DNA from: a virus
Virus record (IMG/VR): IMGVR_UViG_3300008108_000260
Span: 1 to 51,835 of that record
Length of the DNA: 51,835 nt
Direction: 5' to 3' (one strand)
Position numbers and translations under genes: made by a program. The notes beneath the pieces are model-generated. The model saw only the letters and a program-made list of their open reading frames with translations. It was not told the DNA's origin and searched no databases. Below, one piece after another: positions 12,948 to 48,221 of the stretch. How positions within the stretch are numbered: position 1 is the stretch's first letter; each line of letters begins with the position of its first letter.

Positions 12948-13880
12948 TCATGCAAAGTCTGCACGGGCCAGAGAGTTGGTGTTGCCGATGGCTCCACCGA
13001 GGGTCTCATAGGCAAAGAACTCCAACATGTAAGCCTTGCGCTCGATGTACATGGTGGTGTCTTCGAGCAAGTAGCTCTTGCCCATGAACTTGGGATCAGC
13101 AAACAGGTACATCGAGTCGCTGGGGACCAGATCCTGCTTGATGGTGACGATCCAGTTGGCGTTCATGAAGTTCTGCTCGGACCAGCCATTCTTGAAGAGG
13201 TCCTGGCTGAAGTCGCCACCCATTTCTTCACGACCAAACTTCATGATCTCGCGGATCGTGAGGTTGTTCAGAAGAACGGTACCAGTCTCTAGACGAGAGA
13301 TGGTGCGGGGCAGAATCTTGAAAGCGTCCTGGAGGGTATCACGGGTGATACCGCCGTACAGGGTTTCCCACTGAACGGTGCCAGAGTTGGGGTTAACGGT
13401 GTCGGCAGAGCCGCCGAGGCCAGCGTTAACAGCAGCCAAGAACTTGCGGTCTTCTTCAGCCAGCATGTCCTTGATTGAGTTGTCGCTTAGAACCTGACGG
13501 ATGTCGATGTAATAAGTACGCAGTTCGTCAACGTCCTTCGTGAAACGAGGGGTGACGATACGGTCGAAGCTAACGCGGTAGCGCTGGCCACGAATGTACA
13601 GGCTCATCGGCAAGGTAGCGAAGGGAATGCTGACAGCGGCAGGGGAGTCTGGCTCGCGGTCAACAATCTTCACTGGCTTGTCGGTATCAACCTGACGATC
13701 AAGATCGTCATTGCTGATCTGGACAGGGGGTAGAATGCGGCGATAGAAGCCTTCTTCACGCATTCTGTAACGGGTGAAGTCATTCACTGCGTCAAGCGCA
13801 CGCTTCTCCATGCCTGGGGTCTCCAGGTAGGAGATAAAGGTCTCGTTGCGTAGCTTGACATCGTCATTAACGGATGCCAT
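12948..13880 (-). CDS. Major capsid protein (HK97 fold, putative)
   Basis: Encodes 310 residues from ATG at 13880 behind GGAGG; a TTG six bases upstream is less likely. The order N-terminal arm, RYRVSFDRIVTPRF strand region, long helix (DVDELRTYYIDIRQVLSDNS), central IKDMLAEEDRKFLAAVNA helix and C-terminal beta strands fits an HK97-type shell protein. It lies after the protease and scaffold candidates in the canonical order. Its codon usage is cleaner and more GC-rich than that of its neighbours, consistent with very high expression. The N-terminal arm is short, so little is removed if the protease trims it. Confidence 0.8.
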   Translation of the reverse strand: MASVNDDVKLRNETFISYLETPGMEKRALDAVNDFTRYRMREEGFYRRILPPVQISNDDLDRQVDTDKPVKIVDREPDSPAAVSIPFATLPMSLYIRGQRYRVSFDRIVTPRFTKDVDELRTYYIDIRQVLSDNSIKDMLAEEDRKFLAAVNAGLGGSADTVNPNSGTVQWETLYGGITRDTLQDAFKILPRTISRLETGTVLLNNLTIREIMKFGREEMGGDFSQDLFKNGWSEQNFMNANWIVTIKQDLVPSDSMYLFADPKFMGKSYLLEDTTMYIERKAYMLEFFAYETLGGAIGNTNSLARADFA

Positions 13881-13917
13881 GTTCAAAAACCTCCACGATT
13901 ACCTTAGGGTTAAAAAC

Positions 13918-16312: not shown

Positions 16313-17791
16313 TTAAGCTAGGTAGTTGGAGCGTACGGCATGCTCTTTATACCAGCCAAAATTCGAGTCATTCTTGAGTTCGTTCAAGAAATATAACTGA
16401 TACGTAGCATAACGTCTAGCTAACTGCTCTGCCTCGTCAGCCGAAGCTGTCTTGATCAGATCATTAGCTCTGCCTCTAAAACTGGCAGTTTTTACACCGC
16501 CAGCTTTTACGAACTGAGACATAACTCTTCGTTCAAAGTTGTTTGTGGCTATAGACTTAGCTTCTGCAGTCTTCTTAGCCCAGCTGCTGATATTTTCTGA
16601 TGGAAAAGCAGCAGAAGGATCACAAACGCTTTCTGCGATGCAGTGCTCAAGGCTGCTGTGTTCAGAAATCATTCTGCTGAACACGCCAGGAAGTTTAGCC
16701 TCTATATCGGCTGCGCTGGCTGACTTAAGAACACCATTATCGAATCCAGAAGCAGCTACTACAGCCAGCCAGTCTTTTACGCTCAGGGCAACTTTTTCTC
16801 TGGCTAGGGCTCTCCACACCTGCATGTTGGTGAGTACACCAGTAGGTATGTTGGACACGCTGGCAGTCTTATCGTTAAGAATGACCGCGTCTTTCATAGA
16901 CGTTCCAAATTTTCCGTTTTCTAGATCTGATTCCAGATCGGCTAGCTCATAAGCAATTTTTACAAGCTGAGCTGTTTTTGGATCCATACTGTCAAATCGA
17001 AGACTGTAAGGCATCGTTACGCCCATTTCTTCGGCAAGAAGGGCACCACCAACAGGCTGATTAGACGCAGCTTTAAGATGACCAAAGACATAAGCTATGC
17101 GGTCAGCTGGACGATACACGTCGCTAATGTCGAACCATCTGGGCTCTGGGTTATCAACGTGCAGCACATGTCCGTCTTCAGCAACCTTGGTTAGGTTGTC
17201 CATGCAACCGCCGTACTTACATGTTCTGTCTGTGCAGTACTGCGCACGGCTGGGAGCTTTGTTTCCACAGCCAGAGCATACGTCGTAAGGAACGGAACAG
17301 GCCATGCTTACAGCTAGCTCTTTGTTGTTAGCCAGCTTTTCCATTTCTTTGTCAGCTACCAGACCGCCGTTACGGTCTGCAGCTTCTTTTGTAGCGTTTA
17401 GAGCTACCAGCAATTCAACGCGCTTCATCGCCTCGTTGAACGCCGACATCTTGATAACGCCATAACTTTTCGCTTGATCTTTATTTTGGTGGTTGCGGTA
17501 CCAGCGCGCGTGCTTGACGAACGTAGGATGGTACTTGCGACAAGTCGCAGACTTGAAGCCATCTCCGTTACGGTTTGGGCCATAGGCCTCCGTAGATCCA
17601 ATAGCAATAAGATGCACGAGCTGCTCACCTGGCGCGACGTGGACATCGCGAAGTTTATCAGCGAATTCATGGCCTGCTCTTTTTACGAATGAGCGAAGGT
17701 CGTCTCCGCGTAGACCTTTATTAGACACCTTGACCATTTCGGTCTGTGCTATATCAAGGTTCTGCGCGCCAGGGGTGATGATCTTTATCAT
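16313..17791 (-). CDS. Prohead maturation protease with a zinc ribbon (putative)
   Basis: Encodes 492 residues; ATG at 17791 after AAAGGTGA. Residues 50-130 hold a conserved block with LIAIGSTEAYGPNRNGDGF and a candidate catalytic His101 in KHARWYRNHQNK, followed by a GVIKMSAFNEAMKRVELLV strand-helix. Ser162 in ELAVSMACSVPYD is the candidate nucleophile. A Cys cluster follows (C172, C175, C186, C191, C196), likely a zinc ribbon. This resembles Ser/His prohead proteases that trim scaffold and capsid. It sits just before the scaffold and capsid genes. The C-terminal 250 residues are helical and unassigned, and may act as an internal scaffold. Confidence 0.68.
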   Translation of the reverse strand: MIKIITPGAQNLDIAQTEMVKVSNKGLRGDDLRSFVKRAGHEFADKLRDVHVAPGEQLVHLIAIGSTEAYGPNRNGDGFKSATCRKYHPTFVKHARWYRNHQNKDQAKSYGVIKMSAFNEAMKRVELLVALNATKEAADRNGGLVADKEMEKLANNKELAVSMACSVPYDVCSGCGNKAPSRAQYCTDRTCKYGGCMDNLTKVAEDGHVLHVDNPEPRWFDISDVYRPADRIAYVFGHLKAASNQPVGGALLAEEMGVTMPYSLRFDSMDPKTAQLVKIAYELADLESDLENGKFGTSMKDAVILNDKTASVSNIPTGVLTNMQVWRALAREKVALSVKDWLAVVAASGFDNGVLKSASAADIEAKLPGVFSRMISEHSSLEHCIAESVCDPSAAFPSENISSWAKKTAEAKSIATNNFERRVMSQFVKAGGVKTASFRGRANDLIKTASADEAEQLARRYATYQLYFLNELKNDSNFGWYKEHAVRSNYLA

Positions 17792-32117: not shown

Positions 32118-33233
32118 TTAGTAGTTGCGACCGCCTGAAGTCCTAGCTGGAGGCACAGCCAAAGAACCAGCGTTACTTGGAATTACCGCATTAGTGACAT
32201 TTTTCAAAACGTTAACAGGCGGCGCTGCTGGTCTGCCAGGAGCATTACGATTGTAGCTAAAACCGCCTGCGCCCATGCCGCCAGTCGCTTGGCCTACTGC
32301 TTTTGCTATAGGTGAGTTTATAGCGTCAAGAGTAACACGCTTACCTTGGTCGGCTGCGTTACCTGCTGTAAAAGCAGCAGCGTCGTAGGCATTGCTAGCG
32401 GCATTTTGAATACCCACTCCAACGTTGCCAGCAGCGTTTACTACGTTATTGGCAGCGTTAGAAACTAGGTTTCTAGGGTTGATTGAATAAGGGTCAGTGT
32501 TTGACCCAAAGCTAGGACCAACGCTGCCTGCAGTAAGCGGCACAGTGCCTTCTGTCAGCGATCTAAACTGAGGAGCTGGTCTGAATGGAATACCTCTGTC
32601 GTAAGGCTTGGGGGTTGGCGCTGAGGGAGCTGCTTTAGGGGTTTGCGCAGCTGCCATCTGAGCGCGAATATTTCTAGCTTCTTCAATAGCCTTGTCCATT
32701 GGAGAAGGGCCTTGAGGAATTTTTGCTCTAGAAGCAGCCATCTGCTGTTCTTGATGCTGCCTATAGGCCGTAGGACTAACTGGTTGAGTAGCTGGAGCTG
32801 CAGGGGCTACGCGCTGTCCAGGTTTAATGCCTAGCGACCCAGCGTCTCCACCAGCTACATAAGCAGAAGCTGCGTTTTGGTCTGGGGCGTAGAACACTTC
32901 GCCAGTCTGAGAGTGGCGGAAGCGCTGCATGCCTGCTGGAGCTGGCTGATACATAGCTCTGCTGGCTGCAGTATCTTCAGAAGGCAAAGGACCTTGGTCA
33001 TATGGACTTGAAGGAGCCTGGACTGGAGCCTGCGCTGGAGCTTGAGCTGGAGCAGCGGCTCTTTGTTGATTAGCGTAATAAGCCTGCCTTCTACCAGGAA
33101 GAATAGGCACACCTCTTGGACTTATAATCCCAAAAGGACCAGCCAACTTTATTAAGCCTATCTCTGTGCCTGCTCTCTTAGCGTTAAGACAAGCTTGTTT
33201 TACATGACCAATTAGCTTTTTGTCGATTGCCAT
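32118..33233 (-). CDS. Low-complexity virion-like protein ending in GGRNY
   Basis: Encodes 371 residues from ATG at 33233 behind AGGAGA (an upstream in-frame ATG at 33263 is less likely). The N-terminus AIDKKLIGHVKQACLNAKRA matches that of the next gene upstream (FNYKLIGQIKKAMHK). The body is Ala/Pro/Gln/Ser-rich, with APAQAPAQAPVQAP near residue 60, and the protein ends in TSGGRNY. It is probably disordered, with a short helical region near residues 255-300. Start and end motifs are shared with the adjacent gene 33303-34424. Confidence 0.5.
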   Translation of the reverse strand: MAIDKKLIGHVKQACLNAKRAGTEIGLIKLAGPFGIISPRGVPILPGRRQAYYANQQRAAAPAQAPAQAPVQAPSSPYDQGPLPSEDTAASRAMYQPAPAGMQRFRHSQTGEVFYAPDQNAASAYVAGGDAGSLGIKPGQRVAPAAPATQPVSPTAYRQHQEQQMAASRAKIPQGPSPMDKAIEEARNIRAQMAAAQTPKAAPSAPTPKPYDRGIPFRPAPQFRSLTEGTVPLTAGSVGPSFGSNTDPYSINPRNLVSNAANNVVNAAGNVGVGIQNAASNAYDAAAFTAGNAADQGKRVTLDAINSPIAKAVGQATGGMGAGGFSYNRNAPGRPAAPPVNVLKNVTNAVIPSNAGSLAVPPARTSGGRNY

Positions 33234-33302
33234 CGTAGTCTCCTGTGTAAGGCGTGAATACATTATTGCTCAGAAGTACCTAGCTGTCTATAACGCTTGA
33301 TG

Positions 33303-34424
33303 CTAGTAGTTTCTGCCACCGCCTACTGGCTTGGCTGTAGAAACAGCAGGCAAATTAGGAGTTACAGGCTTGGGAGCAGACTGCTGAACAGGAGCAGCTG
33401 GCTTAGCTGCGTTAACGTCAGTTCTGCTAAACCTTCTGTCCAACATAGGTGCGCCTGCGTCCATATGGGAAGCTGGGCTGTATGGGATGTTAGGTTTGGT
33501 AGCAGGCTTGTTTGGGTCTACCCGTGGGTAGAAGCCTCCGTATCCTCTGTCAGCGTATGGAAACGCTTTTAAAGAATTAGCCGCTGTTTGCCCTAAGGTC
33601 GTTGGTAGTGAGTTTGTTACTACAGGCTTAGAGGGCGTAGCGTAACCCATTACTGCTCTTAATGGCAAAGACGAGGCCCAGGCTGTAGGGCCGTAACCCC
33701 ATCTTCCTTCAGAATTTCGCAATTTTTCAATATTGTCTCTATAGTTTTTAAACTTGCTATGCGCTTCTTCATAGGTAACGTTGGGGTTTTTTCTCATATA
33801 ATGAGTTGCTGCGTCTATTCCACTAATATATAACTTTTGACCTATTGCGTTGTTTACTTCTTTCAAGGTTTGTGGAATTTCTTGTAACTTTTTCTTAAAA
33901 GGGTAAAAAGTATTATTGTACCATTCGTTGTCTCTCATCATATTAGTAGCATTACGCCAGTCTGTGCCTCTAGGAGCATCCCCAGTTTGGTATTCGTAAT
34001 AGCGTTCTGCTAGGTCTTGTGGGTCAATAAGATTAGCGTCACGCATTAAAAAGTCTAAATTACGTTCTGGTTTTATTGTTTCTTCGTATTCTTTCATAGC
34101 CTCAGGTACGTCGTTAAAATCTTGGCGAGGTCTGAGGTTGTATTTTTCCCTAAGATTTCTCATTAACGAGTAAGGATTAGGCTGGGTGATTGGTACGTCT
34201 TTCCAGTCTGCCTCCAGCTTGTCCTTAGCCCTATCTTTTAAAAGACGTTCAGTAACGTCTCTGCGCATGCCGCTTTGAGGATCAATAGCAGCTGGCTGCT
34301 CTGGCTCCAAATACTCAGGCCTAACATAAGGCTTTTCTCCTGTTACTTCTTCTGGAGGCACAGGAGCAGCTAGCTTGTGCATGGCTTTTTTAATTTGACC
34401 AATAAGCTTGTAGTTAAAAGCCAT
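33303..34424 (-). CDS. Virion-like protein ending in GGRNY, paralogue of the neighbour by terminal motifs
   Basis: Encodes 373 residues from ATG at 34424 behind GAGGA. Its N-terminus FNYKLIGQIKKAMHKLA and C-terminus VGGGRNY match the ends of the 32118-33233 product, while the middle differs. The middle (residues 60-230) is ordered and charged, with many Asp, Arg and Tyr (RDANLIDPQDLAERYYEYQT). The last 120 residues are Pro/Ala/Asn-rich. It lies directly after the RNA polymerase fusion gene, five bases from its end. Function unknown. Confidence 0.5.
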   Translation of the reverse strand: MAFNYKLIGQIKKAMHKLAAPVPPEEVTGEKPYVRPEYLEPEQPAAIDPQSGMRRDVTERLLKDRAKDKLEADWKDVPITQPNPYSLMRNLREKYNLRPRQDFNDVPEAMKEYEETIKPERNLDFLMRDANLIDPQDLAERYYEYQTGDAPRGTDWRNATNMMRDNEWYNNTFYPFKKKLQEIPQTLKEVNNAIGQKLYISGIDAATHYMRKNPNVTYEEAHSKFKNYRDNIEKLRNSEGRWGYGPTAWASSLPLRAVMGYATPSKPVVTNSLPTTLGQTAANSLKAFPYADRGYGGFYPRVDPNKPATKPNIPYSPASHMDAGAPMLDRRFSRTDVNAAKPAAPVQQSAPKPVTPNLPAVSTAKPVGGGRNY

Positions 34425-34434
34425 AACCAAGTCC

Positions 34435-37398
34435 TCAATTCAATATCACTACTTTCTGGTCTGACTCAATTTCACCGTTCTTATAAGCTCTTATTGCGTC
34501 AGCCTTTGTAGCAAAGTATCTCTCTGGTTTATTAGACACGAAAGCTGTGGCGTGATACAGACCACCTTGGTACTCGTTCTTAGGCAGCTGGTGAGCCTTG
34601 AAGTTCTTGGTGCTCAGCAGGTTCTTGCTGGGCAGCATCTTCTCAAGAGCGTCCTTAACAGCTCCGTCAGAGACAGGAACGTGATAGTTCATCGTGTCTC
34701 CATCGAAGTCTGCACCAAAGCCAGTAACGATAGCTGGAGGAATCTGTAGAGTCTCAGCCTTGGTCAGCTGGGGCCTGAATGCCATTACGCCATACCTGTG
34801 AAGCACAGGTGCGCGAGTGATGATAACTGGACGCTCGTCCATCTCCTGTAGCAGAGCGTCCTTAGCTGCCTTATCCTTCTGCTCTACTAGCTCAGCAGCT
34901 CTAACAGGAGCAACGCCTCTACGCGCCAACCTTCGTACGATGAATGGCTTGTAGATTTCCCAAGCCTTGCTCTCAGGCAGACCTACTTGGTCCATGTCCA
35001 AGTCTGGGTTAGGTGTAATAACACCTCTACCCACCACGTCTACAGTCGTACTAAGCAGCTTGCGCTGCATGGTGGAGAACTTGGGGTTATCTCCAAAGAT
35101 GTACTTGAGTACGCCTTTGACCTGCCTCTCCTGGTTCTTGGGGCTTACTGGATCCCCCAACCCAGTAACAGCCTTGAAGCTCTTATAGAGCGCAGTACGC
35201 TCATCGCTTAAGTTGTTGCTGAAGCCTGAAGTTTCTTTTAGAGCTTCGTTAGCCTCGAACGCCTCTTTGTACAGATAGTTGGCATCTGCTACTAGGGGCC
35301 TGCCTGTAGCTCCCATGACAGACACAGGCCTGAAGGCTGGAGGAAGAACAGGAATCTTGTCCATCATCCATTCCGATGGGCTTAGTCCAAGCTTGGCCGA
35401 ATGCTTGAGCACAGACCAGCGCTTGAGAGCAGCGTCCTTTGTGGACTTTCTACCATTACGCCATTCGTACTCAGCTTCTCTAGTAGCTTTCTCTAGGTTT
35501 ATATTACTAAGCGCGTTCTTGATGGCTTGTGGGCCAGTCTGGTCGCCAATCGTGTCCTTACCAGCAAGAATATCCATGAACTTGTTCTTGGTAAGGCCCA
35601 GCACTCTGCGGATAGGCTCTTCCATTACTGGATTAGGCATGGGCTCATGAAGCTTGATGTAGCTCCATTGATTGCCTCCATGCCCACCAGTAAGGGATGG
35701 ATCAAACAGACCACCCTTGATTGGCTTCAAGCCTTCTTTCCAATCAACAGTCTCAGCAGATGTGATCTCTCTGCCTTTGGCTAGTTCATCAATGTCCTTA
35801 TTAGTTAAGGCCATAATCTGAATACGAGGTCCGTTTCTTACTGGGTTGATACCAGCAGAGCGAAGCTGATTGAAGAACTTGCCATACACCAAAGGAATCT
35901 TTGGTGGTGGGGGAGTCTTGCCAGCCATGAAGCTAGCCCAGTAATCCTGGTTCTTCTGCCCACGAATAGACTTGGCGTCTGTAATGACTTCCAGAGCGCC
36001 GTGGCTGAGCAGAGCATTCGTATCAGCAAGAGATACTCTCTTACTGCCCTGAGGCCCACCCTTGGCTGGAGTGTCTTCTGCTGTATAAGAACCAAGACCA
36101 CGGCCAGAGCCTTTGCTCTCAGCCATGTGGTGTAGCTTCATGAAGAAGCGATTGCCTGTGAATACGTTCTTTATCTTTCTATTGCTGTCTGGGTCTTCTA
36201 CATCTTCAAGGTCTTTCAGGCCGTGCTTCTTGAGTTCGTCTTTTGCGAACTGCACCATGTCCTTGATGTCAGAGAAATCTTTGACAGCGTATCGTTTGCC
36301 AGTCTTCTCCGCGATCTTACCTAGAGCAGCCTCGACCATTTGGCTTGGATTAGTTCTGGAAATGATACCAAGGGGGTTGACCAACACTTCAAAAGGCCTG
36401 CCTTCTGAATCCTTGGGCATCTTGTCATCTGGAATGATGTCAGCGATAACGCCCTTGTCGCCATAACGACCAGATAGCTTGTCAGCTACCTTCATTTCTG
36501 AGTAGCCTTTGACAGTAACAAGCATACCTTTTTTGGTTTTTTCTACGTCTGTAACTACGCCTGGGTCATCGTGCTCCCAAGTGATGCTGGAATCGTTGTA
36601 TAGTTGACCTCTCGACCTACCAATCTGGTTGTGCGCTCTTTCTTTTTCTTTTATCTGAAGAATAAGAGGCATATCTTTGTGTACTACAGTTCCTGGCTTA
36701 ACAACGCCATCGTCGTCTAGTGTTTCTAACACTTTTCTGTCATAAGAGCTTGGAAACATAGAGATGTAATTTTTCTTTCCGTGCTTTAGGCCCTCTTCGA
36801 ACTCAGTGTCGTGTTGATACATGTGCTCAGAAGCTAGCTTTTTAGCTGCTGACTGAGAGATAACAATAGCGTCTTCAAAGTTAGCGCCCTTGTATGGCAC
36901 ATAAGCCGTACGCAAGTTTAGGCCTAGAGCCGTAGCTCCTTTATCGTTTGTGAAGTTTGATTTGGCTAGTAGCGTATCTTTGTTAACCATGTCACCGACT
37001 TTTACTGTCGGCGTGTTGTGCAAGAAGGTTTTTCTGTTGTATGGCAGATTGTTATGCAGTTCGTGTTCTACAATCTTACCGTCTGCGCCCTTAATCTTTA
37101 TGACGTCAGGAGTTACTTCAACCACTTGTCCTTCTGCGTTGCTTTTGATAGCGCCCATGTAAGAGCCGTAGCGCTCTTCAAAAGACTCGTCTGCGTCACC
37201 AGGAACACCAGCCTGTACGAATGGAGCTTCAGCGTCCTTGAGAGGCAGAGCCTGAGTTGTCATTCTCGCGCCCATCATGACGCGCTGCCCCTTGGTGGCG
37301 CTCTTGAGCGGAATCATATTAACTAGAGGATTGAATGAATCTTCCATGTGAGGAAGAGTGAACTCTACTTGGTCTCTAGGTACGTATTTGATCAGCAA
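34435..37398 (-). CDS. RNA polymerase fusion: beta C-terminal half joined to beta' N-terminal half
   Basis: Encodes up to 987 residues, beginning at TTG 37398. Residues 171-181 are GANFEDAIVIS and residues 303-318 KVADKLSGRYGDKGVI, the beta active-site segments with both catalytic lysines kept. NPLGIISRTNPSQMVE follows near 342. From about residue 560 it becomes beta': GLFDPSLTGG, then IPVLPPAFRPV near 690 and the RAPVLHRYGVMAF block. Residues 895-901 are GADFDGD, the magnesium-binding motif, with Asn458 of E. coli replaced by Gly. Beta and beta' are fused without a stop, while beta is split from its N-terminal half and beta' from its C-terminal half. It overlaps the upstream beta gene by 23 bases in a +1 frame. 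Confidence 0.9.
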   Translation of the reverse strand: MLIKYVPRDQVEFTLPHMEDSFNPLVNMIPLKSATKGQRVMMGARMTTQALPLKDAEAPFVQAGVPGDADESFEERYGSYMGAIKSNAEGQVVEVTPDVIKIKGADGKIVEHELHNNLPYNRKTFLHNTPTVKVGDMVNKDTLLAKSNFTNDKGATALGLNLRTAYVPYKGANFEDAIVISQSAAKKLASEHMYQHDTEFEEGLKHGKKNYISMFPSSYDRKVLETLDDDGVVKPGTVVHKDMPLILQIKEKERAHNQIGRSRGQLYNDSSITWEHDDPGVVTDVEKTKKGMLVTVKGYSEMKVADKLSGRYGDKGVIADIIPDDKMPKDSEGRPFEVLVNPLGIISRTNPSQMVEAALGKIAEKTGKRYAVKDFSDIKDMVQFAKDELKKHGLKDLEDVEDPDSNRKIKNVFTGNRFFMKLHHMAESKGSGRGLGSYTAEDTPAKGGPQGSKRVSLADTNALLSHGALEVITDAKSIRGQKNQDYWASFMAGKTPPPPKIPLVYGKFFNQLRSAGINPVRNGPRIQIMALTNKDIDELAKGREITSAETVDWKEGLKPIKGGLFDPSLTGGHGGNQWSYIKLHEPMPNPVMEEPIRRVLGLTKNKFMDILAGKDTIGDQTGPQAIKNALSNINLEKATREAEYEWRNGRKSTKDAALKRWSVLKHSAKLGLSPSEWMMDKIPVLPPAFRPVSVMGATGRPLVADANYLYKEAFEANEALKETSGFSNNLSDERTALYKSFKAVTGLGDPVSPKNQERQVKGVLKYIFGDNPKFSTMQRKLLSTTVDVVGRGVITPNPDLDMDQVGLPESKAWEIYKPFIVRRLARRGVAPVRAAELVEQKDKAAKDALLQEMDERPVIITRAPVLHRYGVMAFRPQLTKAETLQIPPAIVTGFGADFDGDTMNYHVPVSDGAVKDALEKMLPSKNLLSTKNFKAHQLPKNEYQGGLYHATAFVSNKPERYFATKADAIRAYKNGEIESDQKVVILN

Positions 37399-38839
37399 TG
37401 TCCTGAGGAGACTTCCACTCAGGCGCTCCAGTCTTAACGTTAAGAAACTTCGTGTATATCTTGCCGTTTTGGCCTTTCATTGTGCTCATAGCCAAACGAC
37501 TATCTACGCCCACCTTCAAAGATTCAGGGGTGAGCAGAGGATCTACGTAACCAAAGTGAGAAGGCTGCACAGAGCGCGCTTCTTCTGGCACAGCGTCAAG
37601 AGATGGAATACCACCTTCGCCAAGCCTGCTCATACGAGTCAGCTGGCCGAGGATTTCAGCGTTGTTCACTTCTTCCGATGGCTGGCCTAGCCCTGAGGAT
37701 ATGATTGCAGCCTTAACGTGCTTGTCTAGAAAACCAGAAGATAGAGAAGATAGGTTGTTCTTGAAAGTAGCCTTCCACAGGATTGGATTGATTACCTTAT
37801 AAGCAGACCTAATACGTTCAGCGAAGAAGTCCTCTGGGCCATAGATCATCTGGTAGGCCATAGCGTCACGGTCATCTGGTTCAGCTTCTCGCTTCTGCAC
37901 AGCTAGAATCTTTCTTGTAGAGTCCAGCATCGCGTCAATGGACAAGTTCTTATATGGCTTGCCTAGCGTTCTATTGGTAACTACGTCATCAAGCTCCATC
38001 TTGTTAAACAGTTCTCTTAGCTTGCCAGTACGAGACTCTGCTCCTAAAGCAAAGTCACTTTTGCGAAGCATCTTTTGGGCTATCTTGTCTACAGCTTGTG
38101 GGTCGTTGTTTTTGGCGTTGATCTCGTATAGCTCGTTGCCCCAAGCCTTACGAATCTGATCGTCTTTTGCCCCTAACGCTCTTAGCAGAGGAAACAAAGG
38201 AATAGACGCCTGCCCAAGCGTCATCTTGAATACACCCTTCTCTGGGTCAAGAGTGTACCTGTGAGATACGCCCTTACCTGGCATTACGTTTACGTGGGAC
38301 TCTATCTCGCCGTTGGCTTTCTCTCTAGTGAATACCCCAGGACGCAGACGAGCTTGGTTAGCCAGTGTGTACTCAACACCGTTAAGTACAAACGTACCGC
38401 CATTGGTCAGCTTGGGGATACGCGCCATGGTTACTTTCTTCTCGTCAACGACATTGTCGTTGAGATCAACAAGCTGCCATGTGCCCTGTAGACGCCTCTC
38501 AAGGCTTTCTTGCCTCAAAATGGCTTTCTTACGCTCAGCGATTGTTGGCTTGTCGTTATCTACGTATTGGGCATTTACCAATCGCATCTTATAGCGATTA
38601 TTGGAAAACTCAGGCATCTCCTGAGCTGCCTTGAGAACGCTGTCATAGATAGACTGTCTAGTCTTGTCTATGTCCGCGAAGCCACGCATGCTTTGCTGAG
38701 GCATGCTGACTTCAGGCAATACGGCTCCAGGTAACACGCCCGTATTAGCCTTTGGAGTTATGTTCACAAATGGCTTAACAGCCGACCCTGTTGGCTGGAT
38801 CGGCTGTTCAGGTGACTCAAAGTCTAGTACCGAGGGCAT
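37376..38839 (-). CDS. RNA polymerase beta subunit, N-terminal half
   Basis: Encodes 487 residues; ATG at 38839 behind GAGGAAA. Residues 85-175 carry the start of beta (NRYKMRLVNAQYVDNDKPTI, then VKKVTMARIPKLTNGGTFVL), matching the clamp/protrusion segment IGEFPLMTDRGTFIINGTER. Near residue 430 EEARSVQPSHFGYVDPLLTP aligns with the conserved RDVHPTHYGRVCPIETPEG. The frame ends at TAG 37376, with the rest of beta in the next gene in the +1 frame. The cellular sequence has roughly 20-40 more residues at this joint. It acts with the next gene products in a phage-encoded, alpha-less polymerase, as in phiKZ-like phages. Confidence 0.88.
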   Translation of the reverse strand: MPSVLDFESPEQPIQPTGSAVKPFVNITPKANTGVLPGAVLPEVSMPQQSMRGFADIDKTRQSIYDSVLKAAQEMPEFSNNRYKMRLVNAQYVDNDKPTIAERKKAILRQESLERRLQGTWQLVDLNDNVVDEKKVTMARIPKLTNGGTFVLNGVEYTLANQARLRPGVFTREKANGEIESHVNVMPGKGVSHRYTLDPEKGVFKMTLGQASIPLFPLLRALGAKDDQIRKAWGNELYEINAKNNDPQAVDKIAQKMLRKSDFALGAESRTGKLRELFNKMELDDVVTNRTLGKPYKNLSIDAMLDSTRKILAVQKREAEPDDRDAMAYQMIYGPEDFFAERIRSAYKVINPILWKATFKNNLSSLSSGFLDKHVKAAIISSGLGQPSEEVNNAEILGQLTRMSRLGEGGIPSLDAVPEEARSVQPSHFGYVDPLLTPESLKVGVDSRLAMSTMKGQNGKIYTKFLNVKTGAPEWKSPQDIADQIRT

Positions 38840-40645: not shown

Positions 40646-41008
40646 TCACCTCTGAGGAATGTTAAGGCCTGACAGTGATACGTAAACTTTTCTTCTTTCT
40701 TCTACTTGTTGGCGCAAAACTTCAGGATCTGTGGGCGTTCCTTGCTCTTCTGCAGCCAAAATAACTTCCATAAGTCCTTTAGCAGCAAGGAGTAACTCCT
40801 TGATCTCGTCCCTATAATGCCCCTGTCTTTGTCTCATGCTATCTGCCTCTCGGGCTAAGGCTATAGCGCGATATCGCATTACCATAGGGGCTTCTATTTT
40901 CATTTCTCCTGAGCGTTCGTCAATAATGTAGACCATTCCGTCCTGTGCCCAGTACTTCAGGTCCCTAAACGAAAGTACCTTTCCTTCCTTGACAATGTCC
41001 TTGCTCAT
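40646..41008 (-). CDS. Small helical protein, unknown function
   Basis: Encodes 120 residues, AAAGGAA before the ATG at 41008. An N-terminal beta segment (DLKYWAQDGMVYIIDERSGE) is followed by two long charged helices (MRYRAIALAREADSMRQRQG; EIKELLLAAKGLMEVILAAE). Its end lies three bases from the next start. No family recognised; it may be a chaperone or structural adaptor. Confidence 0.5.
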   Translation of the reverse strand: MSKDIVKEGKVLSFRDLKYWAQDGMVYIIDERSGEMKIEAPMVMRYRAIALAREADSMRQRQGHYRDEIKELLLAAKGLMEVILAAEEQGTPTDPEVLRQQVEERRKVYVSLSGLNIPQR

Positions 41009-41389: not shown

Positions 41390-41887
41390 TTATATGTCTA
41401 TTCGCCTTAATGATGGAAGCGTTGAAAGCTTGTCTTCTGGCTTATGCGTTGGTCTGTCTGGAACAAACTTCTTTTCTACTTTTATTGCTTTCTTATCTAT
41501 CTTAACACTGAGAACTATTGAGTCATCATCTTCTGCTAATAGAAAAAGGTTATCAGAAGCTATTCTTGTTCCGTTTACTAGCAGTCCGCAGGGGATGTTT
41601 GAATTGGTTATTTCTATAAGGAGTTTGGGAAATACTGGAGGCCCAAACAAAGATGATGACACAGACACATTAGAGGCATATGGATACATGACGTATCCAG
41701 ACAGGTTTCTCTCCTGGTCTGGAACTGAGTTGAATATTCTAAAGTCTTCAGGTCTTGGGGTTGGATTTGTGCTAGATGTCGATGACTCTAGAGTGCTGTT
41801 CGCTTGTGTTTGATTGAAGTACTGGACTATTTGATCCAATATCTGGTTGGTCAACGCTGACAACTCTGGTTGAGAATCTGTGCTCAA
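41390..41887 (-). CDS. Protein with C-terminal LRRIDI motif (tandem set, member 4)
   Basis: Encodes 165 residues from TTG at 41887, supported by a GGGAGG site nine bases upstream; there is no ATG until residue 66. The start lies 116 bases inside the preceding gene in another frame. The sequence contains a beta domain near residues 95-145 (CGLLVNGTRIASDNLFLLAE) followed by a charged linker, and ends SLRRIDI. The three preceding gene products have similar ends. Function unknown; baseplate or virion component by context. Confidence 0.55.
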   Translation of the reverse strand: MSTDSQPELSALTNQILDQIVQYFNQTQANSTLESSTSSTNPTPRPEDFRIFNSVPDQERNLSGYVMYPYASNVSVSSSLFGPPVFPKLLIEITNSNIPCGLLVNGTRIASDNLFLLAEDDDSIVLSVKIDKKAIKVEKKFVPDRPTHKPEDKLSTLPSLRRIDI

Positions 41888-42692
41888 TTTCGTAATCCTC
41901 CCTAGGCAGAACGAATTCTGTTCTTACTATCATATTTTCTCCAGCATCAATAGTGCTAAGGCTGTTAACCTTTATCTTTGCTGAGTTCCCGATGCTGAAG
42001 GATTCGACAGTAGAGCCATAAAGGTTATTAGGCTCGGCTACTCTAACGTTGTTAATTTTAAATTTTCTTTTGGGTCTTTCTTCTGGAACAGTGGTTTGGC
42101 GATCTAGCCTACGGGACTCTACAGCGAGAAGTTCTCTAAATTCAGTAAACGCTGCGGAGCCGTGAAACTCTATAGCTGACATTTCTGTTCTTATTTCATG
42201 GCGGCATTCTGGAGGATGACTAAGCCTCTCCTCTGCGTTTATCAAAGCATTGAACCAGGAGTACAAGTCGCCTTTCTTTATTACCCTTTCGCTAAAGAAA
42301 GAATGCCTGAGGGCCTCCCTGTCTAGCGAGTACAGAGGGAAAGCCATGTCTGTTATGGCTAGCATTCTTTCGTTGTAGGCTATGAGAATGTCCTTGGTTC
42401 TTGACTTTCTTAAACGCGCTAAACCCCTTAGCTCGCAAATTATTTTAAATCTGTGAAAAGCGCAAAAGCCTGCTCTGGTGTTATATATAGATAGCATGTC
42501 GTTAGTTGTATCGCAAAAGCATTGCCCTACAAACCTGTTTAATGCGTCTCCGCGAGCTGTGTCTAGGTAAGAATCATACCTGGGTATGTTCCAACGGGAC
42601 AAAGAATACGAATCAAAAGTTGGTAATTCCAATTCCCAAGAAGACATGTTGCTTGGGTATATGTCATTAAATACTGGAGGATTGTAAGCCAT
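41772..42692 (-). CDS. Protein with C-terminal SRVIDI motif (tandem set, member 3)
   Basis: Encodes 306 residues, AGGAAG before the ATG at 42692. The N-terminal 190 residues are helical and aromatic-rich (DSYLDTARGDALNRFVGQCF; IICELRGLARLRKSRTKDIL). A beta-rich C-terminal domain (residues 210-275, RKFKINNVRVAEPNNLYGST) resembles the domain of its downstream neighbour, followed by a Ser/Asn-rich linker and the end SRVIDI. Its last 39 codons overlap the next gene. No family recognised. Confidence 0.55.
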   Translation of the reverse strand: MAYNPPVFNDIYPSNMSSWELELPTFDSYSLSRWNIPRYDSYLDTARGDALNRFVGQCFCDTTNDMLSIYNTRAGFCAFHRFKIICELRGLARLRKSRTKDILIAYNERMLAITDMAFPLYSLDREALRHSFFSERVIKKGDLYSWFNALINAEERLSHPPECRHEIRTEMSAIEFHGSAAFTEFRELLAVESRRLDRQTTVPEERPKRKFKINNVRVAEPNNLYGSTVESFSIGNSAKIKVNSLSTIDAGENMIVRTEFVLPREDYEIEHRFSTRVVSVDQPDIGSNSPVLQSNTSEQHSRVIDI

Positions 42693-42701
42693 GGCTTCTT
42701 C

Positions 42702-43547
42702 CTATAGCTCGATGCTTCTTGTTTCTGCGACAGGCGACGATATTGGATCATACTCCGATGACACCAATCTGGTAGGCCTCAGCACGCTAGACCTTGTTGT
42801 TTGAGTCAGAGCTGCTTGATGCGATTCAATCAAGTCAGGAATAAAACTTCTCCATGTTCTGTTTACCTCTAAACTTATAACCTTGAATGTATTGCTTGGA
42901 GTAAAGTTTCTCCATGGGCTAGCTATTTTAGATAAAGGCTGCATTGGTATTTTTAGCCTGTTATCCATTTCATTGGTTTCGTTTACTCCGAGATATTGCC
43001 TGAATATGAGAGCAAACTTTCCGAGTATGATTTCAGTTTCCCTCTTGGCTCCTACCAGAAACCTGAATGATGCGCTTGGAACTTCTCTATTTAAGTTGCT
43101 GTGCAAAGACTGTTGAAACTGTAATTCTCTTTCCAACACAGTCAGCAAACATGTGACCCATAATCCCATGGAGTCCAGATTGTATATCAGTGTTGATCTT
43201 CCATAATCCAAATCAACTAATTTATGTATGCAGTGCGCTTTTGGGTTATATAGGGTTTTTGCTGCTTTCACCAAATCCCTGCAGTATTTGGCTACGGTTT
43301 TAATGTAGATGCTTTCCGCTGTGGTCAAATACGACATTCTCAACGGATTGTGTTGCAGCGTTATTAGCTTTGAAGTGATATAAGCAATTTGCAATCTATA
43401 TATGTGAGAAGCGTTGTAAAAAAAGTCATCTGACAAAGGCGTGTAGGGATCGAGAGGAGCTAGCAGAAAGTCTGTAGACAGTACGGGGCTTCCAGGCCCC
43501 ATGTTGCAATCTATAAGGGGATGCTCCTTGTACATGCCTGTAGCCAT
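42702..43547 (-). CDS. Protein with C-terminal TRSIEL motif (tandem set, member 2)
   Basis: Encodes 281 residues; ATG at 43547 directly follows the upstream stop (TGAATG) and GGAGC. It is mainly helical, with HIYRLQIAYITSKLITLQHN and LLTVLERELQFQQSLHSNLN, and a C-terminal Ser/Thr/Pro-rich linker ending ETRSIEL. The N-terminal Tyr/Phe-rich style resembles the gene at 41772-42692, so the two may be distant paralogues. Function unknown. Confidence 0.55.
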   Translation of the reverse strand: MATGMYKEHPLIDCNMGPGSPVLSTDFLLAPLDPYTPLSDDFFYNASHIYRLQIAYITSKLITLQHNPLRMSYLTTAESIYIKTVAKYCRDLVKAAKTLYNPKAHCIHKLVDLDYGRSTLIYNLDSMGLWVTCLLTVLERELQFQQSLHSNLNREVPSASFRFLVGAKRETEIILGKFALIFRQYLGVNETNEMDNRLKIPMQPLSKIASPWRNFTPSNTFKVISLEVNRTWRSFIPDLIESHQAALTQTTRSSVLRPTRLVSSEYDPISSPVAETRSIEL

Positions 43548-43856
43548 TCAAAGCTCCAGTCGTCTTGATGGAGAAGCTTGTTCAGTAGTTTCAACAGTAT
43601 CTTCTTGTATAGGCAAAGGTCTAGGCGTGTGTATCAAACTTTCGTCCCTGTTTGATACGACAAATACGCAAGCTCCTGGTATTATTGGGATTTCGAGTTT
43701 CAGATTTGTTACGTTATCTGGTAGAGCTGTGAGTTGTATGCTGTTGCAAGGTATTGTGCGTCCGTTAAGTCTAAGCCCTATAGTCTGCCCAGTTCTTGGG
43801 CAGACTACCAGCTCCCAGAAGTCTATGTGTTCAGACAAACTGGCCTCACATTCCAA
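43548..43856 (-). CDS. Protein with C-terminal SRRLEL motif (tandem set, member 1)
   Basis: Encodes 102 residues, probably from TTG at 43856 just inside the end of the upstream gene; the ribosome binding site is weak. It is a single beta-rich domain (GQTIGLRLNGRTIPCNSIQL; LEIPIIPGACVFVVSNRDES) followed by a Pro/Thr/Glu linker and the end PSRRLEL. The LNGRTI phrase matches VNGTRI in the 41390-41887 product, which supports a shared domain. Function unknown. Confidence 0.5.
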   Translation of the reverse strand: MECEASLSEHIDFWELVVCPRTGQTIGLRLNGRTIPCNSIQLTALPDNVTNLKLEIPIIPGACVFVVSNRDESLIHTPRPLPIQEDTVETTEQASPSRRLEL

Positions 43857-44877
43857 ATAGACCTGGAACTACTGCCTTCAAAGCGCCAGCAAACATTCCT
43901 GTTTGTTGAAGAGTGTTTTGAGCTTTGGGGGTCAGCCCAGCCAAAGCCCCAAGAACTTTACCTCCCAGGTAGGCCTGAGACAAGCCAGCCCCCATACCCA
44001 CACCTATCCTGGCTATATCAAAAGGATTGATGATACCGCTGTTGCCCTTCGATTGGTCAGCAGCTTCAGTCAGTCCAACTGTGGCAGCTCGTATGGCTGG
44101 AGGGGTAAACGGATCCATCATTACAGTCCTGTTGAACGCGTCTACAGGAATGTCTGCCAGTATTCCTAGACCTGACCCAGACGTACCGTAATCAAAAGCT
44201 TCTTTGGTTGTGTAGACTTCAAGCTTTTCGTCAAAGAAAGTAGTCAATTCCTGGCTAGCTTGTTTTATTGCTTTGCTCTGCTGCCCGAAGAAAACGTTTG
44301 GCTCTATCCAAGCGTTGAATGAGCTTCTTTCTGGATCTTGCCAATTACGCTGACCTACAGTTCCTAGATAGGCTGCTGGAGCTGCGCCAGCCAAAGCGCC
44401 AAGAAGAGCAGTAGTCTTACGAAGCTTACCCCTTTCTACGTAATCTTCAGGCAACAGTCGTTCTGCCAAAGCCCCACCAGCGTAGCCTAGGCCTCCACCC
44501 AACAAGCCAGAAGTTAGCATAGAAAACAAAGGACTTGTGCCGAACTGACCTAAAGGCTTGTTCCAAGCAGCTGGGGCCAAGTTCATGGCTTGAGTTATCG
44601 GCTTAATTACTTTCCAAACAGGAGTGCCAGCTTTCTTGACGTAAATCCATTGACCTTTGTCTGAAAGTCTTGAGTCAATGTATCCAACAGCAAAACCTTG
44701 CTTTTCAAGATGTTCCTGAGTCTTGTAGCAATCGGTGTAAAGTGATGTGTGGCCGTTGTTGAACCAAACTACAGCTGAGTCGTTTGCCATAGCTTTTTTG
44801 ACAGAAGTGTAAAAAGGCAAAAGCTTTAAAGCAGTTTCTTTAACTACAGAAGAAAGATTTTCAAACGTAAGATTCAT
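43846..44877 (-). CDS. Virion-like protein with a glycine-zipper hairpin
   Basis: Encodes 343 residues, AAGGGG before the ATG at 44877. Residues 1-95 form a compact alpha/beta domain (SAVVWFNNGHTSLYTDCYKT). Residues 118-170 form a hairpin of two Gly/Ala-rich segments (SGLLGGGLGYAGGALAERLL, charged loop, TALLGALAGAAPAAYLG), like those in 17801-18703 and 24448-27342. Further Gly-rich helices lie near residues 295-345 (IGVGMGAGLSQAYLGGKVLG). It is the first gene of the minus-strand virion block. A membrane-interacting internal virion protein is inferred. Confidence 0.5.
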   Translation of the reverse strand: MNLTFENLSSVVKETALKLLPFYTSVKKAMANDSAVVWFNNGHTSLYTDCYKTQEHLEKQGFAVGYIDSRLSDKGQWIYVKKAGTPVWKVIKPITQAMNLAPAAWNKPLGQFGTSPLFSMLTSGLLGGGLGYAGGALAERLLPEDYVERGKLRKTTALLGALAGAAPAAYLGTVGQRNWQDPERSSFNAWIEPNVFFGQQSKAIKQASQELTTFFDEKLEVYTTKEAFDYGTSGSGLGILADIPVDAFNRTVMMDPFTPPAIRAATVGLTEAADQSKGNSGIINPFDIARIGVGMGAGLSQAYLGGKVLGALAGLTPKAQNTLQQTGMFAGALKAVVPGLFGM

Positions 44878-45014: not shown

Positions 45015-48000
45015 ATGGCTGGTAACGCTCGCTCTAAAGATATTGTCGCCAAATTGGAATCTAAGTTCAAGGTCTTGAAGAGGGACGGAAGAACAGAAGA
45101 CTTCAAAAGCAGCAAGGTCAAAAGCGCTATTAAGCGCGCACTGATTAACGGAGGACGCTATAAGGCTGAGACTGCTGAAACAGACTCAACTCGTTTAACG
45201 GCTTCGGTTTGTAACCTGGTAGCCAAGACTGGCGATACCCTTATCAAGGTAGACGCACTACAGGATATCGTCATTAGGCAGCTTTGGGCAGACAATCTGG
45301 ACGAAGTAGCTACTCACTACACCCTTTACAAGGAAGATCGTAAACGAGCCAGAGAAAGTGACCCTATCGATCCAGCTTTGAGGGAAATGATTGCCAAAGA
45401 CTCTGAGCACTTTGGTGAGCCCATTCAATACTTCCAGCTTATGACCAAGTTTGCTCGTTGGCGTGAAGACAAGAAGCGCAGGGAAACTTGGCAAGAAGCC
45501 TGTGAGCGAATCATGGGTTGGCTAAAGAAACAGCCTAGGTTGAAGAAAGTAGAAAAAGAAGCTTGGGAAGAACTTTACAACTATCTGTACAACCAGCAAG
45601 CCAGCCCAGCTATGCGCGTTGTGCAGATGGCTGGCCCACCTCTTGATCGTTGTAACGTGGGTGTGTTCAACTGCTCCTACATGCCCATCACTGACCTGTT
45701 CTCGTTTGTGGAGCTGCTCTACATTCTCATGCAGGGTACTGGTGCTGGCTTCTCTGTAGAGGACAGCTACATTGAACACCTTCCTCGCATCAAGCGACAG
45801 AAGGGCGGTGATAAGAAGAAGCACACAGTTGAGGATTCAACCGAAGGCTGGTGTGACGCTCTCAAGCTTGGCCTTGAGACTTGGTTTGAAGGAGACGATG
45901 TAGAGTTTGACTTCAGTAAAGTTCGCCCTGCTGGTGCCATTCTCAAGACAAAAGGTGGTCGTAGCTGCGGACCAGAGCCTTTGAAGGATCTGCTGCGCTT
46001 TGCCAAAGACCTTATCATCAAGCGTCAAGGTAAGTATCTTACCCAGCTTGACTGCCATGACCTGGCTTGCATGGTTGGCAAGATCGTGCAGGTAGGTGGT
46101 GTGCGTAGAGCTGCGCTTATCTCTCTGTCTGATCTAGACAGCGAAGAAATGCGTAACGCCAAGTCTGGAGCTTGGTGGCAGAACCACGTGTATCGTTCTA
46201 TGGCAAACAACTCTGCCGTATACGACGAAAAGCCAGACGCCATCAAGTTTATGGATGAATGGCTTAGCCTAGCCAAGTCAGGCTCGGGTGAGCGTGGCTT
46301 GTTCAATCGAGATGGCGTATTGCGCATGCTGCCTAAACGGCGCAAAAAAGCCAAGTTTGGAACCAATCCTTGTTTTCATGGTGATACACGTATAGCCACT
46401 GAAGTCGGGCTTATCCGCATTGCGGATCTGGCCAACGACGGAAGAGCTTTTAAGGTAGCCGTGGACAACCGTAACAAAGTTGGTCAGCAAGACTTCAGAG
46501 TAAATCTGATGGACGCTACTCCAGCCCAGGTTACGCAAAAGAATGTCATGACTTATAAAGTCACAACCGAGCACGGCAACGAGCTTATTGTGACCGATAA
46601 CCATGAGTTCCCCACTAACAGGGGGCGTCTGCAGCTGAAAGACATCAGAGTGGGTGACACTCTCATGCTTCAATCAGATGAAGGCTTTTTCGGTATGGAA
46701 GGCAATTACAGCGAAGGCCTAGTCATGGGCATAGCTGCTGGAGCTGGCCATATTGAAAAAGAAGGCCAACGACAGACGATGAACATTGAGAGATTCTTCG
46801 ACAATGTTCTTAACGCTAAGATGCTTGGCGATTGCAAACGCGCTATCAATCGCATCACTACCAGCGGAAGTGTAAAGCTAAAAGAATTAAAGTCGCACAA
46901 GTCAGTTAAGTTGTCTGGTACTTTGTTTACCAGCAAACTGCAAAGCATGTGCGGTTTTAGCTCTGTAGCTAACCTCAAAATGGAAGTGCCAGAAGAGATT
47001 ATGCGTGGCAGTCGCGGTATGGTGGCTGGCTACCTTGTAGGTTTGTTGTCATCTGGAGGAGTAGTCCAAAGGGTGAAGAACATTCACAACAAGCGCCTTG
47101 AGATGAATATGGTTTTGACTTCTGAAAGCCACCAGATGCTTTTAGACGTCCAAAAGCTGCTGCTGAACTTTGGAGTTGTTTCAAAGATTCGCAGAGCTAG
47201 CGACCGTAGCGTGTCTTCCGTGCCGTTGGTTGACGAAAAGCGCAAAAGCAATGTCGAAGCTTATTGTCTTATCGTTAACAACTACAACTGCGCCACACTT
47301 GTGGATCGCGTTGGTCTGGACGGAGCTTCTCTCAGTCAGCTGATAGAGTGTGTCAACGACGATAGCGCCGTAGACAAGCTCAGGGCTGAAGAGTACACCA
47401 CAACCATCAAGAGCATTGAGGAGTACTACAAGACAGACGTGTACTGCCTCAATCAGCCAGCAACTCACAATTTGTTGGCTAACGGCGTAGTCGCAGGCAA
47501 CTGCGCTGAGATCATTCTCAGGCCAAACGAGTTCTGCAACCTAAGTATCGCTGTGGCTCGTCCAGACGATACTGCGGAGTCTCTGGCCAACAAGGTCAGG
47601 GTCGCCAGCATTTTCGGTACTCTTCAGGCTACTTGCACCAACTTCAAGTACATTCGTGAAGCTTGGCACAAGAACTGTGAAGAAGAAGCATTGCTGGGTG
47701 TGGACATCACAGGTCAAATGGATTGCCCACTTCTGCGTCCAGGCGCTGAAGGTAGGGACAAGCTGCTACAAGACCTTAGGGACTTGGCAGTTAAGACCAA
47801 CGAAGAGTGGGCCAAGAAGCTAGGCATCAACAGGGCTGCTGCCGTAACCTGTGCGAAGCCTTCAGGCGACTCTGCCCAGTTCTTCAACTGCGGATCTGGC
47901 ATTCACGCCTGGTTCGGCAAATACTTCATTCGTCGTGTGCGTGAACGAGCTGCCACAGTGTATGTCGATCCGCATGAATGGCTCGAAACAGGAGCTTGGG

Positions 48001-48221
48001 TTCACAGACACTTTGACGAGATTAGCGGCGTCAGCTTCCTTCCTCGCGATAACGGTACTTATACTGGTACTCCCTATGAGGAGATCACGGAGGAAGAGTA
48101 CACAAAGAGAATGGCTGAACTGCCTAAGATCGATTGGAGTAAACTGATTCGCTACGAGACTGAGGATAATACCACAGGATCACAAGAGTTTGCTTGTGTG
48201 GCTGGGGGTTGTAACCTGTAA
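45015..48221 (+). CDS. nrdJ: Class II (adenosylcobalamin-dependent) ribonucleoside-triphosphate reductase with an intein
   Basis: Encodes 1068 residues including a 377-residue intein; about 691 after splicing, near the size of monomeric class II enzymes. It reduces ribonucleotides to deoxyribonucleotides using a B12-derived radical. Residues 15-115 are an ATP-cone (FKVLKRDGRTEDFKSSKVKS). The barrel follows, with CNVGVFNCSYMPITDLFSFV and VGGVRRAALISLSDLDSEEM. The radical-bearing NPC motif is interrupted directly before its Cys, which becomes extein residue +1 (CAEIILRPNEFCNLS). The protein ends ACVAGGCNL, the Cys-x4-Cys redox pair of this family. It supplies DNA precursors independently of host oxygen state. 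CGGAG lies ten bases before the ATG. Confidence 0.93.
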   Translation: MAGNARSKDIVAKLESKFKVLKRDGRTEDFKSSKVKSAIKRALINGGRYKAETAETDSTRLTASVCNLVAKTGDTLIKVDALQDIVIRQLWADNLDEVATHYTLYKEDRKRARESDPIDPALREMIAKDSEHFGEPIQYFQLMTKFARWREDKKRRETWQEACERIMGWLKKQPRLKKVEKEAWEELYNYLYNQQASPAMRVVQMAGPPLDRCNVGVFNCSYMPITDLFSFVELLYILMQGTGAGFSVEDSYIEHLPRIKRQKGGDKKKHTVEDSTEGWCDALKLGLETWFEGDDVEFDFSKVRPAGAILKTKGGRSCGPEPLKDLLRFAKDLIIKRQGKYLTQLDCHDLACMVGKIVQVGGVRRAALISLSDLDSEEMRNAKSGAWWQNHVYRSMANNSAVYDEKPDAIKFMDEWLSLAKSGSGERGLFNRDGVLRMLPKRRKKAKFGTNPCFHGDTRIATEVGLIRIADLANDGRAFKVAVDNRNKVGQQDFRVNLMDATPAQVTQKNVMTYKVTTEHGNELIVTDNHEFPTNRGRLQLKDIRVGDTLMLQSDEGFFGMEGNYSEGLVMGIAAGAGHIEKEGQRQTMNIERFFDNVLNAKMLGDCKRAINRITTSGSVKLKELKSHKSVKLSGTLFTSKLQSMCGFSSVANLKMEVPEEIMRGSRGMVAGYLVGLLSSGGVVQRVKNIHNKRLEMNMVLTSESHQMLLDVQKLLLNFGVVSKIRRASDRSVSSVPLVDEKRKSNVEAYCLIVNNYNCATLVDRVGLDGASLSQLIECVNDDSAVDKLRAEEYTTTIKSIEEYYKTDVYCLNQPATHNLLANGVVAGNCAEIILRPNEFCNLSIAVARPDDTAESLANKVRVASIFGTLQATCTNFKYIREAWHKNCEEEALLGVDITGQMDCPLLRPGAEGRDKLLQDLRDLAVKTNEEWAKKLGINRAAAVTCAKPSGDSAQFFNCGSGIHAWFGKYFIRRVRERAATVYVDPHEWLETGAWVHRHFDEISGVSFLPRDNGTYTGTPYEEITEEEYTKRMAELPKIDWSKLIRYETEDNTTGSQEFACVAGGCNL
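46371..47501 (+). other. Intein in nrdJ (377 residues) with a degenerate LAGLIDADG endonuclease
   Basis: Runs from Cys453 to Asn829 of the precursor, with the host Cys as +1 residue. Block A is CFHGDTRIATEVG; block B has the TxxH motif in VTDNHEF (Thr527, His530); the C-terminal block reads VYCLNQPATHNLLANGVVAGN before the cysteine. The usual penultimate His is Gly828. Between the splicing blocks two LAGLIDADG-like helices are visible, GLVMGIAAGAGHI (568-580) and GYLVGLLSSGGVV (672-684), followed by LLLNFGVVSKIRR typical of this family. Both acidic catalytic positions are lost, so the endonuclease is probably dead while splicing may persist. Confidence 0.92.

Follow-up and report, generated by a model that had tools for sequence, protein, structure and literature searches.

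A C-terminal peptide shared by four tandem phage genes recurs on unrelated proteins of related phages: a putative docking tag

Background

Four adjacent genes of a phage end in nearly the same few residues, and the question is whether this ending is an accident, a trace of common descent or a signal in its own right. The genes lie on a single 51.8-kb viral record, here called the window, by which we mean the whole stretch of DNA that was analysed. A first-pass annotation had described the ending as R-x-[IL]-[DE]-[IL] at the free C-terminus and had suggested that it binds one common partner.

Data sets and patterns

The comparison covered all C-termini of 17 related phage records, some of which are fragments, with genes called mechanically. 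The internal background of the pattern R.[IL][DE][IL] was pooled over related proteomes, giving a count of 61 in 588,210 positions, i.e. 1.04e-4 per site. Wider tail patterns were defined after the data had been seen.

Results

The four genes and their endings

Four adjacent ORFs on the minus strand (41390-43856), all present in the ORF list, end in LRRIDI, SRVIDI, TRSIEL and SRRLEL (Table 1). The ending is indeed unique to them, as 0 other ORFs in the window match the motif. It is non-random: the motif is seen at 4 of the 59 C-termini of the window, all adjacent, vs 0.006 expected (probability ~5e-11).

The codons of the four tails differ, and selection therefore acts on the peptide; for the same reason, a recent DNA repeat and an artefact of ribosome-binding sites are both ruled out as the origin of the tails. 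Synonymous codons of the tags vary beyond the window too.

Table 1. Array genes, tails and flanking markers in the window
Feature	Position	Strand	Description
Conserved 343-aa Gly-rich hydrophobic protein	43846..44877	-	Upstream flank, synteny marker
ORFa	43548..43856	-	102 aa; beta domain, linker, tail SRRLEL (ending SPSRRLEL)
Predicted beta domain, ORFa residues 14-57	43686..43817	-	From sequence alignment; low-confidence AF2 model, pLDDT mostly 60-71 there
Tail codons RRLEL, ORFa	43551..43565	-	AGA CGA CTG GAG CTT
ORFb	42702..43547	-	281 aa; mostly helical (low-confidence prediction); tail TRSIEL (ending AETRSIEL)
Tail codons RSIEL, ORFb	42705..42719	-	AGA AGC ATC GAG CTA
ORFc	41772..42692	-	306 aa; Ser/Asn-rich linker; tail SRVIDI (ending QHSRVIDI)
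Tail codons RVIDI, ORFc	41775..41789	-	AGA GTC ATC GAC ATC
ORFd	41390..41887	-	Up to 165 aa, TTG start uncertain; weak beta-domain similarity; tail LRRIDI (ending PSLRRIDI)
Tail codons RRIDI, ORFd	41393..41407	-	AGG CGA ATA GAC ATA
Conserved 120-aa protein	40646..41008	-	Downstream flank, synteny marker

With the listed TTG start, ORFd and ORFc share 116 nt; the true start of ORFd may therefore be further downstream.

A similar beta domain had been proposed for at least three of the four products. This holds only in part: ORFa has clear homologues in relatives (see below), the likeness of ORFd and ORFc to ORFa is slight (phmmer E 0.04 and 0.4, respectively, in a six-sequence database), and ORFb shows no such domain. 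Homology of all four bodies was not detected, every pairwise comparison of the window ORFs falling short of E 1e-3. Searches of PHROGs and Pfam with the four ORFs gave 0 matches above threshold. The AF2 models of ORFb (pLDDT 34) and ORFa (pLDDT 52 overall) are uninformative, and the ORFa model had no match in the PDB with E below 1.

The array sits between the 343-aa hydrophobic protein and small conserved genes, upstream of RNA polymerase (RNAP) and head genes on the same strand. The window phage has a tail-sheath gene at 6701-9463, together with weak matches to a major head protein (12948-13886) and to a head-maturation protease (16313-17791, E 0.0017). RNAP beta/beta' ORFs are found at 34435-38839.

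Further features of the window were recorded alongside. RNAP beta/beta' is split there into two overlapping ORFs (37376-38839 and 34435-37398) and is one ORF of ~1480 aa in the two closest relatives, L002 and L003; the split may be a frameshift, an assembly error or real. A ribonucleotide-reductase-like gene (45015-48221) carries an intein-like insert, identified by eye, between CFHGDTRI and VVAGNCAEI, and the corresponding genes of L002 and L003 carry inserts as well. Two adjacent proteins of 381 aa (32118-33263) and 375 aa (33303-34430), with no blastp homology between their bodies, both end in GGRNY, possibly a second shared ending in the window.

The closest relatives

L002 and L003 share the neighbourhood of the window, and their RNAP beta part is 78 and 71% identical. 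At the syntenic locus they have one gene each, of 481 and 329 aa. Loss of the motif from these ends in related phages had been named beforehand as the refuting outcome; the motif is kept at the syntenic gene, as NDRFMDL in L002 and, slightly altered, as DRVLKLD in L003. With the tails removed, blastp still identifies ORFa as a homologue of the C-terminal domain encoded by the L002 gene (6.5e-7), and the L002 gene as a homologue of the L003 gene (4.5e-4). The match between the L002 and L003 proteins extends through the tail.

Profiles A6 and A8 found the family nowhere else among the 17 records. With ORFb, the L002 gene, the 120-aa gene and RNAP as queries, the only viral contigs recovered were L002 and L003, and bacterial and archaeal genomes gave no matches. 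The L002 and L003 genes, the 343-aa gene and the DUF3150-like protein described below were without a match among cultured phages.

We infer, as the simplest history, that the four window genes descend from one gene. A tagged ancestral gene, of which the two closest relatives still have a single copy, would have given rise to four fast-diverging tandem genes, the bodies of which would have diverged beyond recognition while the tag was retained.

The ending on unrelated proteins

Outside the window, the strict motif of the first-pass annotation is found only at two adjacent genes of G005. Related endings are more widespread, and in more distant relatives about a dozen protein families without mutual homology carry the tag. 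Exactly three predicted genes of G002 (189,675 b) end in [LIVMF]x[LIVMF][DE], and all three have RxLxLD; these carriers are scattered, being the syntenic gene, a 474-aa protein and a 388-aa DUF3150 protein. A second tandem array, of three adjacent genes, is found in G005 with the endings RRRIEL, RRRVDIT and RRMIEL, and the DUF3150-like 354-aa gene of this phage ends in HRALDLG. Two genes following the latter (G005 90345-91303, L095 10345-11303) end in RRGISLDD and RRNISFEE, close to the RTLSLD of G002.

Counts for the pattern R.R.[ILVM][DEN][TVASIL] near the end, one of the patterns set after inspection, are 10 proteins in G006 (226 kb) vs 0.5 expected, 6 in G017 vs 0.4, and 5 in G016 vs 0.2, where one of the five is a doubtful ORF. 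The G006 carriers, mostly RxRx[IV]D[TV], comprise a portal homologue, an AAA ATPase, a DUF3150-like protein, SWIM-like proteins and orphans. Tagged small proteins adjoin replication genes. In a pattern-free comparison of C-termini, a six-member cluster of G006 stands out from the null. Taken by themselves, the three proteins of G002 stay within the null of general C-terminal similarity.

The tag is C-terminal in every carrier. Counted from the C-terminus, most carriers have the same register as the window, with Arg at -4, a hydrophobic residue at -2 and an acid at -1. Degeneracy of the motif shows in G002, where the acid at -1 is missing and a terminal Asp is added, and in the AAA proteins, which have Asn in the motif plus two extra residues. 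With the tails removed, the carrier bodies fall into 17 groups at blastp 1e-3. The tag is absent from the relatives G003, G004, G008, G010 and G011.

Added tails and variable linkers

Portals of G006 and G017, the former matching the annotated Arash portal (E 2e-54), carry an extra tagged C-terminal extension. The tag is thus an add-on, since the portal orthologues of G002, G004, G005 and G008 are without the tail. For the DUF3150-like orthologues, an R-containing tail of this kind is present in 5/5 phages.

Linkers before the tags diverge, whereas the tail is retained. Among the SWIM-like genes, three phages share the ending R[ST]RxxDT behind linkers varying in length and sequence, and a pair of 167 and 207 aa keeps RTRVIDT. 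The stretches before the tags have a lower content of order-promoting residues (0.22 vs 0.31, p 5e-5, one per family).

Other shared endings

In the tag-negative G008, seven tandem genes with lysine-rich ends surround a C39-like peptidase (80205-86932, i.e. L070 205-6932), and four of the seven share the ending KLKKKNR, encoded by nearly identical DNA. Related lysine-rich endings occur at this locus in G010 and G003 too. Two genes of Pseudomonas phage SM1 (L158 4266-7555), which follow a similar AAA ATPase, end in VRTPRRR and RRGRTPR, perhaps another shared ending.

Discussion

We consider the endings to be a probable modular C-terminal docking tag for a putative single partner. The tag would be a short linear motif, R-x-[ILVM]-[DE]-[ILVT], placed at the free C-terminus after a flexible linker and sometimes followed by one or two more residues. 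Tagged proteins within one phage appear to use a similar version, and the versions have presumably drifted apart between lineages, a pattern to be expected of tags with one common reader. We infer that the tag binds something, and that one partner reads it is well supported. The proposal of a common partner gains strength from the tag being kept at syntenic genes and recurring on non-homologous families, where its register is mostly unchanged and the linkers before it vary. Docking in the virion or baseplate, the site first put forward, is only one option for the putative partner, and a processing signal, also put forward, is likewise no more than a possibility. A purely virion role does not follow, because the AAA ATPase/DUF3150/SWIM operon and small proteins next to replication genes are also tagged. 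The literature searched, mostly outside subscription papers, contains no report of the tag.

Known systems suggest what the partner may be. In T4, the capsid-targeting sequence (CTS) is N-terminal and is removed by the head protease. T4 internal proteins are a highly diverse set in which only a short terminal peptide is conserved (PMC3012670), and the tandem genes of the window, diverse in body and alike only in the terminal peptide, are similar. By analogy, the tag might attach a variable set of internal proteins to the prohead core, together with the portal in some phages, and the attached proteins would then be packaged and injected like those of T4. This reading is possible but somewhat doubtful. 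The position of the array upstream of RNAP and head genes agrees with it, as does the tagged portal homologue of two phages. However, the shared peptide is C-terminal in every carrier, unlike the N-terminal T4 signal, AAA, DUF3150-like and SWIM-like proteins are tagged as well as the portal, and the portals of four relatives are untagged.

A phage operon of AAA ATPase, DUF2997, a small conserved gene and a DUF3150-like protein was found at L142 1742-6029, with SWIM-like genes, and at L026 5140-8850; no paper was found in the literature that joins these domain names with phage. It is rather unlikely, although conceivable, that the tag is a client or assembly tag of this AAA/DUF2997/DUF3150/SWIM module, which would bind or remodel the tagged proteins. 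The module is present in 5/5 checked tag-positive records and its own members are tagged. In a blastp comparison of gene content, the sole family found in G002, G005 and either G006 or G017 and absent from G003, G004 and G008 was the small gene of the operon, and DUF2997, missing from the same three, shows the same split. The split is suggestive, but a single evolutionary event may account for it. Some records are incomplete, and there is no direct sign of recognition.

A disordered linker ending in a conserved recruitment peptide is also known from the C-terminal tip of SSB and the C-terminal peptide of FtsZ. The architecture is alike, but there one carrier has many binders, whereas here many proteins carry the tip. 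Another parallel is given by the T4 clamp-binding C-termini (gp43, gp55, gp33), where an interchangeable hydrophobic/acidic motif follows linkers divergent in sequence and length on unrelated proteins that meet at one hub (PMC2988020). We regard it as improbable that the tag is a docking peptide for a phage or host clamp or for other replisome proteins. The architecture of divergent linker and hydrophobic/acidic tip is the same, and tagged proteins of G006 adjoin DNA polymerase and recombination genes. Unlike the T4 peptides, the consensus here has Arg at -4 and there are more carriers; moreover, the DNA polymerases are untagged (that of G006 ends in DEYLGK, its G002 homologue in FYGAG), and no PF00712 or PF02916 clamp was found above cut-off in tag-positive genomes, where a host or divergent clamp is possible.

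Plain duplication would make the four ORFs paralogues that share the C-terminus by descent alone, the tail having no separate function. The tandem arrangement, the single gene in the two closest relatives and the homology of ORFa to both of their genes agree with this. However, no pair of window ORFs reaches E 1e-3, yet the tail persists, and non-homologous proteins of G002, G005, G006, G016 and G017 bear the same tail. These unrelated carriers largely refute the explanation, which we consider to have little chance of being right.

That the ending is an artefact, arising by chance or from ribosome-binding sites in the ends of the genes, is extremely improbable: the next start codon is close behind the ends of ORFa and ORFb, but ~120 nt downstream of ORFd are without any listed gene, the differing codons rule out a ribosome-binding-site origin of the tails, and 15 matches vs 0.86 expected were counted over 2253 C-termini (Poisson p 3e-14, with orthologues not being independent).

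Returning to the docking tag, for the window array we tentatively place first a targeting into the prohead or virion interior, by analogy with the T4 CTS. Second, as a less probable option, the tagged proteins might dock on the AAA/DUF2997/DUF3150/SWIM module or be handled by it; a replication or host hub comes third and appears unlikely. A reading of the hydrophobic-acid-hydrophobic core as integrin/VWA-like is purely conjectural.

The observation is larger than first reported, as the tag is not confined to the window array. It might even reflect proteome-wide addressing in the large phages of the group, a speculative reading in which a lineage-specific C-terminal code is read by one co-evolving phage receptor that sorts or assembles the carriers. 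RxIDI, RxLxLD, RxRxVDT and, in others, KLKKKNR are perhaps such codes. If the tag is an address, a single receptor could be identified for a dozen uncharacterised phage proteins in one step; the carriers together would mark out a functional machine or compartment, and the tail peptide could serve as bait. As the tag outlives recognisable homology of the bodies, it provides a sequence handle on phage proteins to which no function has been assigned.
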